From the NCBI RefSeq assembly GCF_000146065.2, contig NC_020449.1:1054001-1118000 (forward strand): DNA of 64,000 nt. Direction: 5' to 3'. How positions within the stretch are numbered: position 1 is the stretch's first letter; each line of letters starts with the position of its first letter. Positions 41,032 to 46,364 of this stretch are shown one piece after another. The notes beneath the pieces are model-generated. The model did no database searches and was not told the DNA's origin. It worked only from the letters and a program-made list of their open reading frames with translations. The translations under genes were made by a program, and so were the position numbers. The DNA comes from Candidatus Cloacimonas acidaminovorans str. Evry (GTDB lineage Bacteria; Cloacimonadota; Cloacimonadia; Cloacimonadales; Cloacimonadaceae).

Positions 41032-42351
41032 ATGTTAGTAGAATTCAGCGTAGAAAATTACCGGTCTATTTATAACAAAGTTACTTTAAGTATGGAAGCG
41101 GTTACCAAAAACGAGCTGGATGACCATATTAGAGAAGTTTCCCATCAGCGTTTACTTAAAACCGGTGTAATTTATGGAGCCAATGCCAGTGGCAAAAGTA
41201 ACATCTTTAAAGCATTTTCTTTTATGAAAAATATGGTTCTCAATTCCTTCAAAGAATCGCAAATTGGAGAGCTGATTTTAGTGGAGCCCTTTTTACTGAA
41301 TTCTACGGGTAAAGATGAACCCAGTTCTTTTGAAGTGATATTTTTAATTGATGATGTTCTCTATCGCTATGGATTTTCTGCCTTTAGAGATCATATTGCC
41401 AAAGAATGGTTATTTAGCCGAAAAACAATTCCCAGAGCACGAGAAATAGTTCTTTTTGAAAGATCGGGTCAGGATATTAAGGTCCACATTCAATTCAAAG
41501 AAGGCAAAGGGGAGGTGAAAGACAAACTGAGAGAGAATTCTCTTTTCATCAGTTTATTAGCCCAGTTTAATGGTCTTATAGCAATTAAAATAGTTAAATG
41601 CTTTTTAGATTCCAATTTATGGGCAATGGATGCGTATAATCCTATTCATACAACTGCTTTATTGGATAACAATGTTGTTCCCCTAAAATGGGTAAATGAA
41701 TTTATGCAAAAAGCTGATACTGATATAAAAGAAATCCGGATAAATGAGCAAGAAATTGAAAAGGATATGAGAATAAATATTCCCGTTTCTTCACTTATTT
41801 TAAAGGGGAAAGAAAATCAAGTGGTTACTCTTTCTATTAAGACCATACACCAGTTCTATGATCCTAAAGAAGATGTCCTGAAAGAAGTAGAATTTGATAT
41901 GGAGAAGCAGGAATCTGAAGGAACCAAAAAATTCTACTGTCTTGCAGGTTTATTATATGCCACTTTACAAAATGGTGGAAGATTATTTATAGATGAAATA
42001 GAAAACAGTTTGCATCCTTTCTTAACCAGAATCATTATCCGGTTATTTCAGGATAAAGAAACCAATCCCAAGGGTGCACAATTATTTTTTACAACCCAAA
42101 ATACACTCTTTCTGAATAAAGATAATTTTAGACGGGATGAGATCTGGTTTGTGGAAAAAGCACCGGATCATTCTTCCGATCTTTATTCCTTAGTAGAATA
42201 TAAATTACCGAAAGGTTCTGCCCGTAAAGATGCATCTTATGCAAAGGATTATATTCGTGGAAAATATGGAGCTGTTCCTTATGTAGAATATGCGGATTTT
42301 GCAGAGTTATTCAAAAAAAGCAGAGAGCGGACTAAAAATGAGCAGAACTAA
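41032..42351 (+). CDS. AAA15/21-type ATPase, AbiL (RloA)-like
   Basis: 439 residues. It starts MLVEFSVENYRSI, as AAA15 ATPases do, with Walker A GANASGKSN near residues 48-56. The Walker B/D-loop region LFIDEIENSLHP is near 320-331 and a FFTTQNT segment follows. Members paired with RloB form the AbiL-type abortive-infection module. Its partner gene overlaps by 14 bases but is truncated, so the system may no longer work, or the ATPase may act with another protein. Confidence 0.87.
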   Translation: MLVEFSVENYRSIYNKVTLSMEAVTKNELDDHIREVSHQRLLKTGVIYGANASGKSNIFKAFSFMKNMVLNSFKESQIGELILVEPFLLNSTGKDEPSSFEVIFLIDDVLYRYGFSAFRDHIAKEWLFSRKTIPRAREIVLFERSGQDIKVHIQFKEGKGEVKDKLRENSLFISLLAQFNGLIAIKIVKCFLDSNLWAMDAYNPIHTTALLDNNVVPLKWVNEFMQKADTDIKEIRINEQEIEKDMRINIPVSSLILKGKENQVVTLSIKTIHQFYDPKEDVLKEVEFDMEKQESEGTKKFYCLAGLLYATLQNGGRLFIDEIENSLHPFLTRIIIRLFQDKETNPKGAQLFFTTQNTLFLNKDNFRRDEIWFVEKAPDHSSDLYSLVEYKLPKGSARKDASYAKDYIRGKYGAVPYVEYADFAELFKKSRERTKNEQN

Positions 42352-42589
42352 GAGACCTTATAACATCAGAAAAATTGCTCCGGATTTAATAATTATTGTT
42401 ACTGAGGGTGAAAAGACCGAACCGAATTACTTTAGGAAATTTCCTGTGCAGAAGAAGAAGGTAATTATAATTGAAACAGGTATGAATACAATATCATTAA
42501 TTTCGGCAAATCCTGTTAATTTTGTTACAAAGTGGAATTTATCCATCCATTTTTTCTCAATTGCTTTATTTTGGGTTAAATTAGTATAA
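42338..42589 (+). pseudogene. Truncated RloB-like gene (AbiLii partner remnant)
   Basis: 83 codons starting MSRTKRPYNIRK, then the RloB hallmark IIIVTEGEKTEPNYF and, at about residue 50, TGMNTISLI. Intact RloB proteins are about 200 residues. Here the match stops near residue 57 and the rest (FVTKWNLSIHFFS and so on) is unrelated. The C-terminal two thirds have been deleted and the junction runs straight into the leader of the next gene. It overlaps the ATPase gene end. Confidence 0.65.
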
Positions 42590-42604: not shown

Positions 42605-43270
42605 ATGGAATACACCTTTGAAGCAATTAAATTTTTTCAGGCGCGGATTGAGGCATATTTAAATATTTGGGAAAATGCTACTTTGGAAGATATGAAAAGT
42701 GATCAAAGGGAAAAACAGCATTCACCTTTAAATGTGAGGAAAGCATTATTTCGTCAAGCTATAGGAGGTCATTTAACTGAAGGGCAGGAATATCGGATAG
42801 TCAATCAAGACCTAAAGTGGTATCTGCATCCGGAGTTTGAGACCTTTAACCGAGAATTGAGGAATCTGATAAAAGAAAAATTAGAGGAAAAGAATCTGCT
42901 TTATTACTGGGAGCCGAGAGAATATGAAGAAATTGCCCCGGAAAAACTTCAAGGTCCCTTTGAGCGTGAATTAAATTGTTGGAAATATGTAAATCTGGAT
43001 TATGATGATGGTGATTTGGGCAAAGATGAAGCGGAAATATCCCTAAAAGCAAGATGGGTTTTGCATTGTGCTTATAAAGCTAATAAACTTTCTGAAGCAG
43101 AAATTACCCAATTAATCAAATTGGATTTGGATGCACTGTTGTGTGAAAATGCTGTTTATTTCAATATTTTTGAACTGAAGTTGATAACGGATTTTTTACT
43201 GGAACAGGGAGTTTGGGATCATTTACCTGATCCGCTTTTTGTGAACAGGTTATCTTCCCAACCGGAATAA
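42605..43270 (+). CDS. Unrecognised 221-residue acidic protein in the defence locus
   Basis: A soluble protein, mainly helical by composition, rich in Glu, Leu and Trp, with a central acidic stretch (NLDYDDGDLGKDEAE). No signal peptide, membrane segment or catalytic motif is seen. A TAGGAGATAAAAA ribosome binding region precedes the ATG. Its position straight after the RloB deletion suggests either an unrelated neighbour joined by the deletion or a third component. I do not assign a function. Confidence 0.7.
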   Translation: MEYTFEAIKFFQARIEAYLNIWENATLEDMKSDQREKQHSPLNVRKALFRQAIGGHLTEGQEYRIVNQDLKWYLHPEFETFNRELRNLIKEKLEEKNLLYYWEPREYEEIAPEKLQGPFERELNCWKYVNLDYDDGDLGKDEAEISLKARWVLHCAYKANKLSEAEITQLIKLDLDALLCENAVYFNIFELKLITDFLLEQGVWDHLPDPLFVNRLSSQPE

Positions 43271-43812: not shown

Positions 43813-44280
43813 CTAAGTACTGGAAATTTTGGTGTAAGCAAGATGTAAGGCAATACCTCCAATATAACCTGCAACTGCCTGAATAATATTGACCGGCAAA
43901 TCGGCTATGGCTACTGCCAATCCCAGATTAGGAAAAAGCCAGCAACCCAAAAAATAACCGGCAATCATAATTATAACTGCTATTGCCGGGAAAAAATAAA
44001 TCTGCCATTTTATAGCGGGTTTTGCCAATCCGGCAATTAATCCTTCCAGCCCTTTAACAATAAGCGTTATAGGAGCAAAAACAGGAAAACCGATTAAATC
44101 TGCAAGAGCCGAACCAATTCCTCCGGCAATTAAACCTGCTTTCCAGCCACCAAAAAGTCCACTAAAGATAATAACTACATCTCCTAAATTAAAATAGCCA
44201 CCTCCCGGAACAGGAATTCTTACCAGAACCGTAGCGATCATAACCATAACGGTAAGTCCAACTATAAGATACCATTTCAT
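43813..44280 (-). CDS. ECF transporter S component (substrate-binding membrane subunit)
   Basis: 155 residues with about five hydrophobic helices. The PVPGGGYFNLGDVVI segment after helix 1, GGIGSALADLIGFPVF, and APITLIVKGLEGLIAG are typical of energy-coupling-factor S subunits. The substrate (a vitamin or similar small molecule) cannot be told; no riboswitch is present to help. It is the last gene of a four-gene set with EcfT and two reduced ATPase proteins, 34 bases after the T component. Confidence 0.85.
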   Translation of the reverse strand: MKWYLIVGLTVMVMIATVLVRIPVPGGGYFNLGDVVIIFSGLFGGWKAGLIAGGIGSALADLIGFPVFAPITLIVKGLEGLIAGLAKPAIKWQIYFFPAIAVIIMIAGYFLGCWLFPNLGLAVAIADLPVNIIQAVAGYIGGIALHLAYTKISST

Positions 44281-44314
44281 TTTATCTCCTTTTTATTCAT
44301 CTATTTAGGCAAAA

Positions 44315-44926
44315 TTACTTCGGAACTTGGTGACAATGCCAGATGCGTTCATCAATCATTTCTCCTTTCAGTGTTGCCTCGTTAATTACATAAGTAATAA
44401 GTGCTAAAAGAACAATGAGGCGTTTACGAAACTTTTTTTTCAGAGTAATTTTACCCGCTTGCTCGGCAGGAATGGAATCTACAAAAAGGCATAACTCGGA
44501 ATAAGATGAAAAGGCAATTTTATAAAGCATTTTACCCAAAATAATATACTTCAATTTTTCTATTCCCAAAGGAAAATCCAGAAAGGTGTCTATTTTCAGC
44601 CAAGTGATTAATACCTGGATAAACATTAAACTGCTGATAAGTAATGTAGTTCGCGTAATACCGTAATGAATCCAGTAATCCTTGTTTTGTCCAATCTGAA
44701 AAAGGGCAAAAATAAAATAAACCCCGAAAAGCAGTAAAATAAAAGGCAAGAAGTGATAAAGTTTCTTTAAAAGTCCCTTAAGCTTAAAAGTCCAAGCACT
44801 AAGCAATAATACAACTCCCAAGACAACTAATTGCACAGGGATATTCTCCAGATAAATAAGGCAGAAGAAAACAAAAAACACAATTAGAGCTAAAGAGACC
44901 AACAGTAATCTATATTGTGGTTTCAT
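44315..44926 (-). CDS. Putative ECF transporter T component (EcfT-like)
   Basis: About 203 residues with four to five hydrophobic segments in the first 120 residues and a basic amphipathic stretch later (KKKFRKRL), as in EcfT scaffold proteins. Sequence match to the family is weak by eye; position between the ATPase-like genes and the S component is the main support. ATG 44926 is preferred to an upstream TTG (44950). It overlaps the upstream ATPase-like gene by 17 bases. Confidence 0.65.
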   Translation of the reverse strand: MKPQYRLLLVSLALIVFFVFFCLIYLENIPVQLVVLGVVLLLSAWTFKLKGLLKKLYHFLPFILLLFGVYFIFALFQIGQNKDYWIHYGITRTTLLISSLMFIQVLITWLKIDTFLDFPLGIEKLKYIILGKMLYKIAFSSYSELCLFVDSIPAEQAGKITLKKKFRKRLIVLLALITYVINEATLKGEMIDERIWHCHQVPK

Positions 44927-45434
44927 AAACACGACTCTGATTTGGTGCAATCAACTGAAAATTGATGATGTTAACTTCTTCGGTAACAGAAAAAGAAGAA
45001 TGTTCACAAAAAATGAGACAAAAAGGGATACTACTTTCTTTTAAATAGTGATAAATTTCTGCTAAATGCAGGTTTTCATCTACAAGGCAATAAACCGGTT
45101 TGGGTTCAATAGCATATATTTCGGAGAGATTATGCAGCAGATATTGAATGCAATCCCATTCGCTTTTCAGTTTCAATTCTGGCTTATAAAATGCGGAATG
45201 GGACTTAATAGCATAACCCTGCAAATGAAAAAGTTGCTGTAAATAGAGAAAATAGAACAAATTCCTTTTGGTTTCCAAAACGGGAAGCAAGGAATGTTTT
45301 ATAAAAGAACTTTTACCACTGCCGTTTTCACCTTGCAGATAATAGATATTTTCAGGCAGAAAAAAAAGCTCCTGTTCAATCAGCAAACTAAAATCCTGCC
45401 AGCAAGAAACTATCCCCGGTGCAATTTTAATCAT
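44910..45434 (-). CDS. Half ABC ATPase: Walker A, Walker B and H-loop, no signature motif
   Basis: 174 residues. Walker A GENGSGKSS is at 35-43, a possible Q-loop Gln at 66/67, Walker B LVDE at D119-E120 and a switch His at H145 (CEHSS). The helical subdomain with LSGGQ is missing, and the protein is 60-100 residues shorter than a normal ECF ATPase. The gene upstream carries exactly the missing motif. Together they could form one composite ATP site. The start codon shares a base with the upstream stop (TGATG). Confidence 0.75.
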   Translation of the reverse strand: MIKIAPGIVSCWQDFSLLIEQELFFLPENIYYLQGENGSGKSSFIKHSLLPVLETKRNLFYFLYLQQLFHLQGYAIKSHSAFYKPELKLKSEWDCIQYLLHNLSEIYAIEPKPVYCLVDENLHLAEIYHYLKESSIPFCLIFCEHSSFSVTEEVNIINFQLIAPNQSRVYETTI

Positions 45435-45775
45435 CAGCTTTCGTCCAGAATAATATCCTTTCCGCTATTCCGAATCAAGCTTTGAATTGCATCGCGGCGT
45501 TTTGGATCAAGCGCATTCAGCAAATTCACAAAACGGATTTTAGGTGCAGGAGAATATATTGCCAAAAGTGCCATCAAAATAACTTTCTGCCCTCCGGAAA
45601 GTTCCTCTATTTTGTAAAATTTATCTATTGTCTTACCAGTCAATTTTTCAAACTGGTCAATCAGCTTAGCTGTGGCTGATTCATCCAAATTGTAAATAAG
45701 AAGTTCATCTCTTAAGCGGTCACAGGAAATAAGCGGAATATTAGCATCAGCCAATAAATAATCCTTATGTATCAT
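45434..45775 (-). CDS. Half ABC ATPase: signature LSGGQ and D-loop, no Walker A
   Basis: 113 residues. The signature LSGGQK is at 59-64 and the D-loop ALDP at 88-91. The Walker B Asp-Glu is replaced by V83-N84. There is no Walker A, and none can lie upstream in the gene because tRNA-Ser ends 20 bases before the ATG; a good AAAGGA ribosome binding site occupies that gap. The N-terminal 50 residues correspond to the region between Q-loop and signature. Intact, well-spaced reading frames argue against simple decay. Confidence 0.75.
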   Translation of the reverse strand: MIHKDYLLADANIPLISCDRLRDELLIYNLDESATAKLIDQFEKLTGKTIDKFYKIEELSGGQKVILMALLAIYSPAPKIRFVNLLNALDPKRRDAIQSLIRNSGKDIILDES

Positions 45776-45795: not shown

Positions 45796-45888
45796 TGGCG
45801 GAGAGTCAGGGATTCGAACCCTGGGTACCTGTAAAAAAGGTACAACGGTTTTCGAGACCGTCCCGTTCAACCACTCCGGCAACTCTCC
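45796..45888 (-). tRNA. tRNA-Ser (anticodon CGA)
   Basis: 93 bases including an encoded CCA. The acceptor arms GGAGAGT and ACTCTCC pair around discriminator G. The anticodon arm ACGGT/ACCGT encloses CTCGAAA, giving CGA, which reads UCG. A long variable arm (TGTACC ... GGTACC) and the T arm with GGTTCGAATCC confirm a class II serine tRNA. It lies 8 bases after tadA and 20 bases before the half-ATPase gene, all on the - strand. Confidence 0.97.
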
Positions 45889-45896
45889 TCTTTATT

Positions 45897-46364
45897 TTAT
45901 AATGTTCTTTTTTTGTGGAAAAATTCTTCCAGCAGGAAGGCACATTCTTGTTCCAGAATTCCGCCAATAACAACAGGATGATGATTGAAACTTTTATCAT
46001 TCAGCACATTATACAACGAGCCAACAACTCCGGCTTTCGGATCTTTGGCTCCATATACAACGGTTCCTATTTTACTTAAAATAATCATTCCTGCGCACAT
46101 CAAACAGGGTTCTAAGGTTACATACAGCGTATAATCGTATAAAAACCCGGGCTCTGAAGTTAAAATTTTGTCAATAAGGAGTTTTTCACAATGCGCTAAA
46201 GGATTGGCTAACTGCCGGCTACGATTATGTTCCTTTAATATTATAGTGTTATTTTTAACCAGCAGTGCACCTACAGGTATTTCATCTTCGGTAAAAGCTT
46301 TTTTCGCTTCCGCTATTGCTTCCTGCATAAAAAGATAATGATTTTGGGAAGAAAAGCAAATCAT
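45897..46364 (-). CDS. tadA: tRNA-specific adenosine deaminase TadA-like
   Basis: 155 residues. It deaminates A34 of tRNA-Arg to inosine. The zinc site is H58 with C87 and C90 (EPCLMCAG), and the proton-shuttle Glu is E60. The motif reads H-C-E rather than the usual H-A-E. A KDPKAGVVGSLYN segment matches TadA rather than cytosine or guanine deaminases. The start overlaps the stop of the upstream lipoprotein gene, and tRNA-Ser follows directly. Confidence 0.88.
   Translation of the reverse strand: MICFSSQNHYLFMQEAIAEAKKAFTEDEIPVGALLVKNNTIILKEHNRSRQLANPLAHCEKLLIDKILTSEPGFLYDYTLYVTLEPCLMCAGMIILSKIGTVVYGAKDPKAGVVGSLYNVLNDKSFNHHPVVIGGILEQECAFLLEEFFHKKRTL

Follow-up and report, generated by a model that had tools for sequence, protein, structure and literature searches.

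Four adjacent genes of Candidatus Cloacimonas acidaminovorans str. Evry quite probably encode a four-subunit, ECF-like importer of micronutrients, composed of half1, half2, T and S, in which two half-size ABC proteins form an ATPase heterodimer with one ATP site. Two points are inferences: that the LSGGQ signature of one half faces the Walker A of the other, and that transport is powered by a single ATP. On balance we also favor the view that the two halves represent a reciprocal pruning, which leaves exactly one ATP site per ABC machine, the whole of the second site being gone and the membrane coupler being trimmed to match. The genes are located within the window, the whole stretch of 64,000 nucleotides that was analysed, which is part of a single-contig genome of 2,246,820 bp.

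Organization of the half-ATPase operon

The four genes are all on the minus strand and are aligned in the order half1-half2-T-S, either overlapping or closely spaced. The genes for half1 (45434..45775; 113 aa), the signature half of an ABC ATPase, and for half2 (44910..45434; 174 aa), the catalytic half, share the overlapping stop/start sequence TGATG at 45434. The gene for the EcfT-like membrane protein T (44315..44950) overlaps that of half2, and its probable start is the conserved ATG at 44926, not the TTG at 44950. The gene for the S component (43813..44280) follows. For the two half-ATPases, the lengths, the strand, the gene order and every motif position given in the original prediction proved to be correct.

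The gene for tRNA-Ser(CGA) (45796..45888, minus strand) is located directly upstream of half1 with a gap of 20 bp, and is a neighbour of the operon in 18 of the 35 loci scanned. Upstream of the operon lies also a tadA-type deaminase gene (45897..46364, minus strand), which is a neighbour in several relatives too. The half-ATPase operon may be read from this tadA/tRNA unit.

Complementary motifs of half1 and half2

Half1 contains the strand of the Q-loop region, a helical subdomain with the LSGGQ signature, a degenerate Walker-B strand and the D-loop, and ends at the switch strand; it carries neither Walker A, nor the catalytic Glu, nor the switch His. The signature (residues 59-63; 45587..45601, minus strand) is kept as LSGG in 37/37 genomes, the fifth residue being Q in 34 and E in the other 3. 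For the D-loop ALDP (residues 88-91; 45503..45514, minus strand), L89 is present in all 37 genomes and D90 in 33. The position of the Walker B Asp-Glu is occupied by V83-N84, and among the 37 genomes the residue at the Glu position is N (18 genomes), D (14), H (4) or A (1), never E, with no Asp seen one residue before it. An acidic residue, E24 (45704..45706, minus strand), is invariant in 37/37 genomes and aligns with the groove acidic residue of EcfA (ELAF); as we read the published structures of ECF complexes (PMC6828968), this EcfA residue holds in place an Arg of one of the coupling helices of EcfT. The residues of half1 that never vary among the 37 genomes are E24, L59, S60, G61, G62 and L89. 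No family of Pfam or NCBIfam matched half1 above the cut-off, PF00005 giving no match at all, while the half1 profile matched the signature-to-D-loop regions of ABC chains of solved structure and, weakly, the C-lobe of SMC_N.

Half2 keeps Walker A (GENGSGKSS, residues 35-43; 45306..45332), the Q-loop Gln (Q67; 45234..45236), the Walker B Asp-Glu (D119-E120; 45075..45080) and the switch His (H145; 45000..45002), all on the minus strand, and its helical subdomain is shortened. The last three of these elements were found in 37/37 genomes, and the invariant residues as a whole are G35, N37, G38, G40, K41, Q67, Q72, D119, E120 and H145. No LSGGQ-like motif exists in half2, and inspection by eye revealed no ALDP-type D-loop between Walker B and the switch His. 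Half2 matched no Pfam or NCBIfam family above the cut-off (PF00005, 13.9 bits against the gathering cut-off of 25), and its predicted model has the nucleotide-binding-domain fold, matching 4zir_B of an EcfAA' heterodimer with Z 10.3 over 162 residues at 3.9 A.

The motif complementarity claimed by the original prediction was confirmed in 37/37 genomes, and it is even stricter than first described because half2 also lacks the D-loop, an absence that had been missed. Thus, the ECF requirement of two ABC ATPases, each with all six motifs, is not met, the set being divided between half1 and half2 in every one of the 37 genomes. Since the catalytic and signature residues remain invariant although half1 and half2 drop to 18-25% identity, the complementarity is more than chance. 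The halves had been described as one ATPase split in two. Their complementary nature stands, but they are better regarded as a pair of EcfA subunits that were pruned to opposite halves than as one ATPase cut into pieces, because both keep the pre-Q-loop, Walker-B and switch strands. The original prediction had argued against the breakage of a single ATPase gene by a frameshift, as the signature half is encoded first. A programmed frameshift was rejected: the frame step from half1 to half2 is 0, 1 or 2 depending on the locus, and the signature half comes first. As far as can be read from the sequence, no second ATP site is left, unless the proteins assemble as 2:2.

Distribution and selection

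Each of the four profiles (half1, half2, T, S) matched the same 34 of the 50 genomes of the family, and the remaining 16 lack all four genes, apart from ordinary ATPases that the half1 profile matched weakly. The order half1-half2-T-S was found in all of the 30 loci first examined and in four later ones. The same four-gene order is present in three genomes of another family (f10) of the same taxonomic order, for which half1, half2 and T show 18-25% identity to the window proteins. No further relatives were detected among 387 related genomes, and a scan of public genome contigs with single proteins gave no match. The profile scan of public genomes picked up only Cloacimonadota and an ABC-F Walker A match (L052), which was rejected.

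Full-length homologues in related genomes, the finding that would have refuted the prediction, were never encountered, the ATPase being split in all of the 34 family genomes (of 50) and the three genomes of the other family; within these 37 genomes no full-length or fused half1/half2 exists. The tree built from half1+half2+T contained five genera with more than one representative, of which four were monophyletic with support of at least 0.996; the f10 sequences formed a long separate branch. The co-occurrence of the genes, the f10 copy and the genus-wise tree all fit an old arrangement that was inherited vertically.

The four genes are under purifying selection. Pairwise dN/dS was 0.05-0.33 for half1 and 0.07-0.24 for half2, values like those of T and S or a little higher; dS was saturated for some pairs. 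A ratio near 1, which likewise would have spoken against the prediction, was not seen, the values being far below 1.

Conventional ECF module and inferred origin of the halves

The same genome carries a conventional ECF module (1583456-1585371) consisting of a fused EcfAA' (458 aa) and EcfT. In the conventional module at L032 and L034-L037, EcfA1 and EcfA2 are likewise joined into a single chain. Conventional modules have the gene order A1-A2-T, as for half1-half2-T. The best match of the half2 profile was EcfA2 of the same family (P 97.8, E 9e-13), and that of the half1 profile was EcfA1 (P 94, E 1e-7), over a stretch that begins in the Q-loop region and ends with the strand following the D-loop. 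Based on the shared gene order and the best match of each half to the corresponding subunit, it is a reasonable inference from these comparisons that half1 may have descended from EcfA1 and half2 from EcfA2, even though the score differences are small. The conventional EcfA2 often carries LSAGx (LSAGQ, SSAGQ or similar), not LSGGQ, and asymmetry may thus have existed already in the ancestor. In eight genomes with the half-ATPase operon, one of them 99% complete, no conventional EcfT was detectable, indicating that the operon probably works by itself.

Membrane proteins T and S

An EcfT-like gene and an S-component gene had been predicted to follow the half-ATPases. The latter was identified by PF07155 (86.9 bits against the cut-off of 26.7), and the S-component feature of ECF systems is met; the former is only weakly tied to EcfT. 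The fold of S is closest to that of HmpT (4hzu_S; Z 19.6, 2.0 A, 152 residues), which the S profile also matched with E 2.9e-11. The solved structure of HmpT includes the usual type of ECF module, with full-length ATPases.

T is predicted to have four TM helices and two long coupling-type helices, without a C-terminal TM helix, and ends soon after the last long helix, unlike conventional EcfT, whose frames in these genomes are 241-275 aa in length. By hhalign, T matched EcfT of the same family weakly (P 57-68, E 1e-4 to 5e-5). None of the 29 members of T matched PF02361 (CbiQ), and T had no match in Pfam or among the sequences of the PDB. When the coupling helices were placed by eye, the second long helix was found to keep K/R-G in 32/36 sequences and the first to read IPxxQ, without Arg. 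The ECF feature of two X-Arg-X coupling-helix anchors is not met by T.

In ten loci of one genus (L006-L008, L010, L012, L015, L017, L019, L021 and L022), T and S form one fused protein of about 366 aa, and to our knowledge such a fusion is not known from other ECF systems. The natural T-S fusion was predicted with pLDDT 91.4 and pTM 0.85. In the fold search with this fusion, no EcfT was present among the matches listed, which were taken up by the S part.

Structure prediction of the tethered halves

Half1 and half2 are in frame only in L025 and L009, where a single stop codon lies between them, and a tethered protein was made by reading through half1+half2 with the stop as Gly. The tethered L025 protein was modelled by AlphaFold2 with an alignment of 42 rows (A14); the mixed alignments A7 and A13, in which half1 was misaligned onto half2, were left out. 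The model gave a mean pLDDT of 89.2 and a pTM of 0.64, and both halves fold confidently (pLDDT 89). Half1 is modelled with strands at 22-25, 93-97 and 122-126 and helices at 35-41, 46-60, 75-88 (after LSGGQ) and 105-116, and half2 with its own strands at 177-182, 206-210, 260-265 and 284-289; half2 also retains two helices of a helical subdomain. Chains with two domains (ABCE1, for example) could be aligned over the full length of the tether, but at no better than 15-19 A rmsd. As predicted with this artificial tether, the placement of the halves is unlike the known dimer, and the head-to-tail sandwich is neither shown nor excluded.

Discussion

In the mechanism that we propose, half1 and half2 would pair head-to-tail, and half1 would close over the ATP on half2 with its LSGGQ and D-loop. 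As this single site closes and opens, the coupling helices of T would bend, upon which S may topple or re-dock and so take in a small substrate of the vitamin type, as the resemblance of S to HmpT suggests. The second ATP site would have been physically removed, not merely inactivated. For group II ECF transporters, it has been described that ATP closes EcfA-EcfA', with the coupling helices turning convex and S being expelled, and that the closed form has both of its ATP sites filled (PMC10368641). In the ECF transporter of L. delbrueckii, each catalytic Glu is needed for ATPase and transport, single Glu mutants being inactive (PMC10368641). Since both Glu are essential there, a one-site motor is unexpected and would break the experimental rule of the family. 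The Cloacimonadota system is not a canonical ECF transporter, as it lacks the features of two full ATPases and two Arg, and yet it probably works like one.

Half1 might instead give half2 its missing helical subdomain in cis, with assembly as 2:2 and two ordinary sites. The halves together do hold all motifs of one NBD, the helical subdomain of half2 is shortened, and the non-sandwich placement in the tethered model is compatible with such fragment complementation. However, both proteins keep their own pre-Q-loop and Walker-B strands, the following helix and the switch strand, so that half1 comprises more than the piece that half2 lacks, and its degenerate Walker-B strand would be redundant. 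Moreover, half2 keeps two subdomain helices of its own, and it would be unusual for a single T to be served by a 2:2 motor. On this evidence we consider the complementation unlikely. It also seems quite doubtful that the pair serves as an ATP-binding switch or sensor, for instance gating S without true import: half2 never varies at its catalytic Glu and switch His, which is what one expects of a protein that hydrolyses ATP, even if the divergence of T and the loss of one coupling-helix Arg could be taken in its favor.

The conventional EcfAA' (458 aa) and EcfT present in the genome leave room for half1 and half2 to be regulators or adaptors of that module and not a motor of their own. Against this, the halves always stand beside their own T and S and never occur without them, a conventional EcfT could not be detected in eight of the genomes that encode them, and half2 keeps the full catalytic set, making a regulatory role very improbable. 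Hardly any weight can be given to recent decay, by which two EcfA genes would have been truncated by deletion into pseudogenes. Both halves are short and without family-library matches above the cut-off, but the same short forms exist in 37 genomes of two families with the overlapping frames intact, dN/dS is well below 1 and the catalytic residues are invariant. The deletion and pseudogene readings are excluded.

For the one-site importer that we prefer, no split or half ABC ATPase of the same sort as half1/half2 was found in the literature searched (open-licence papers only). The heads of SMC/Rad50 are made of two lobes of one chain, with Walker A and signature separate, which rebuild one full head. 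The Cloacimonadota halves resemble these in having Walker A and signature on separate pieces, but differ in that they carry overlapping core elements and are encoded by separate genes in a transporter operon. In degenerate-site ABC transporters, both NBDs keep the full fold. Unlike in the BSEP/ABCB11 type, the Walker A of half1 and the signature and D-loop of half2 are deleted; that type has one consensus and one non-consensus site (PMC7544095).

The system resembles the group II ECF transporters (EcfA-EcfA'-EcfT-S) in its PF07155-type S with an HmpT-like fold, in the coupling-type helices of T, in the presence of two ABC-type proteins in the order A-A-T and in the groove acid kept in half1. 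In contrast to group II, both ATPases are reduced to halves, one of the ATP sites is missing, and T is without the C-terminal TM helix and without the Arg of one coupling helix. In canonical systems, EcfA and EcfA' are full ABC ATPases that form two ATP sites, and both catalytic Glu are required (PMC10368641, PMC4820897).

The need for two ATP sites in ABC machines is a long-standing question, for which the usual probes are point mutants or degenerate sites still keeping the fold. If the proposed one-site mechanism is true, a conserved motor with the second site deleted would represent a very small ABC engine, and would make it possible to test directly how the ECF cycle can be driven by a single ATP.

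Other genes near the operon

On the plus strand of the window, an AbiL/RloAB-like defence pair was noticed (41032-42589), including an AAA_21/AbiLi protein (PADLOC, E 7.5e-96). The AbiLii/RloB gene after AbiLi is cut to 99 aa, and the defence pair therefore looks broken. A 221-aa ORF with a weak match to trehalase (E 0.0018; 42605-43270, plus strand) adjoins the broken RloB-like gene and is perhaps a fragment.
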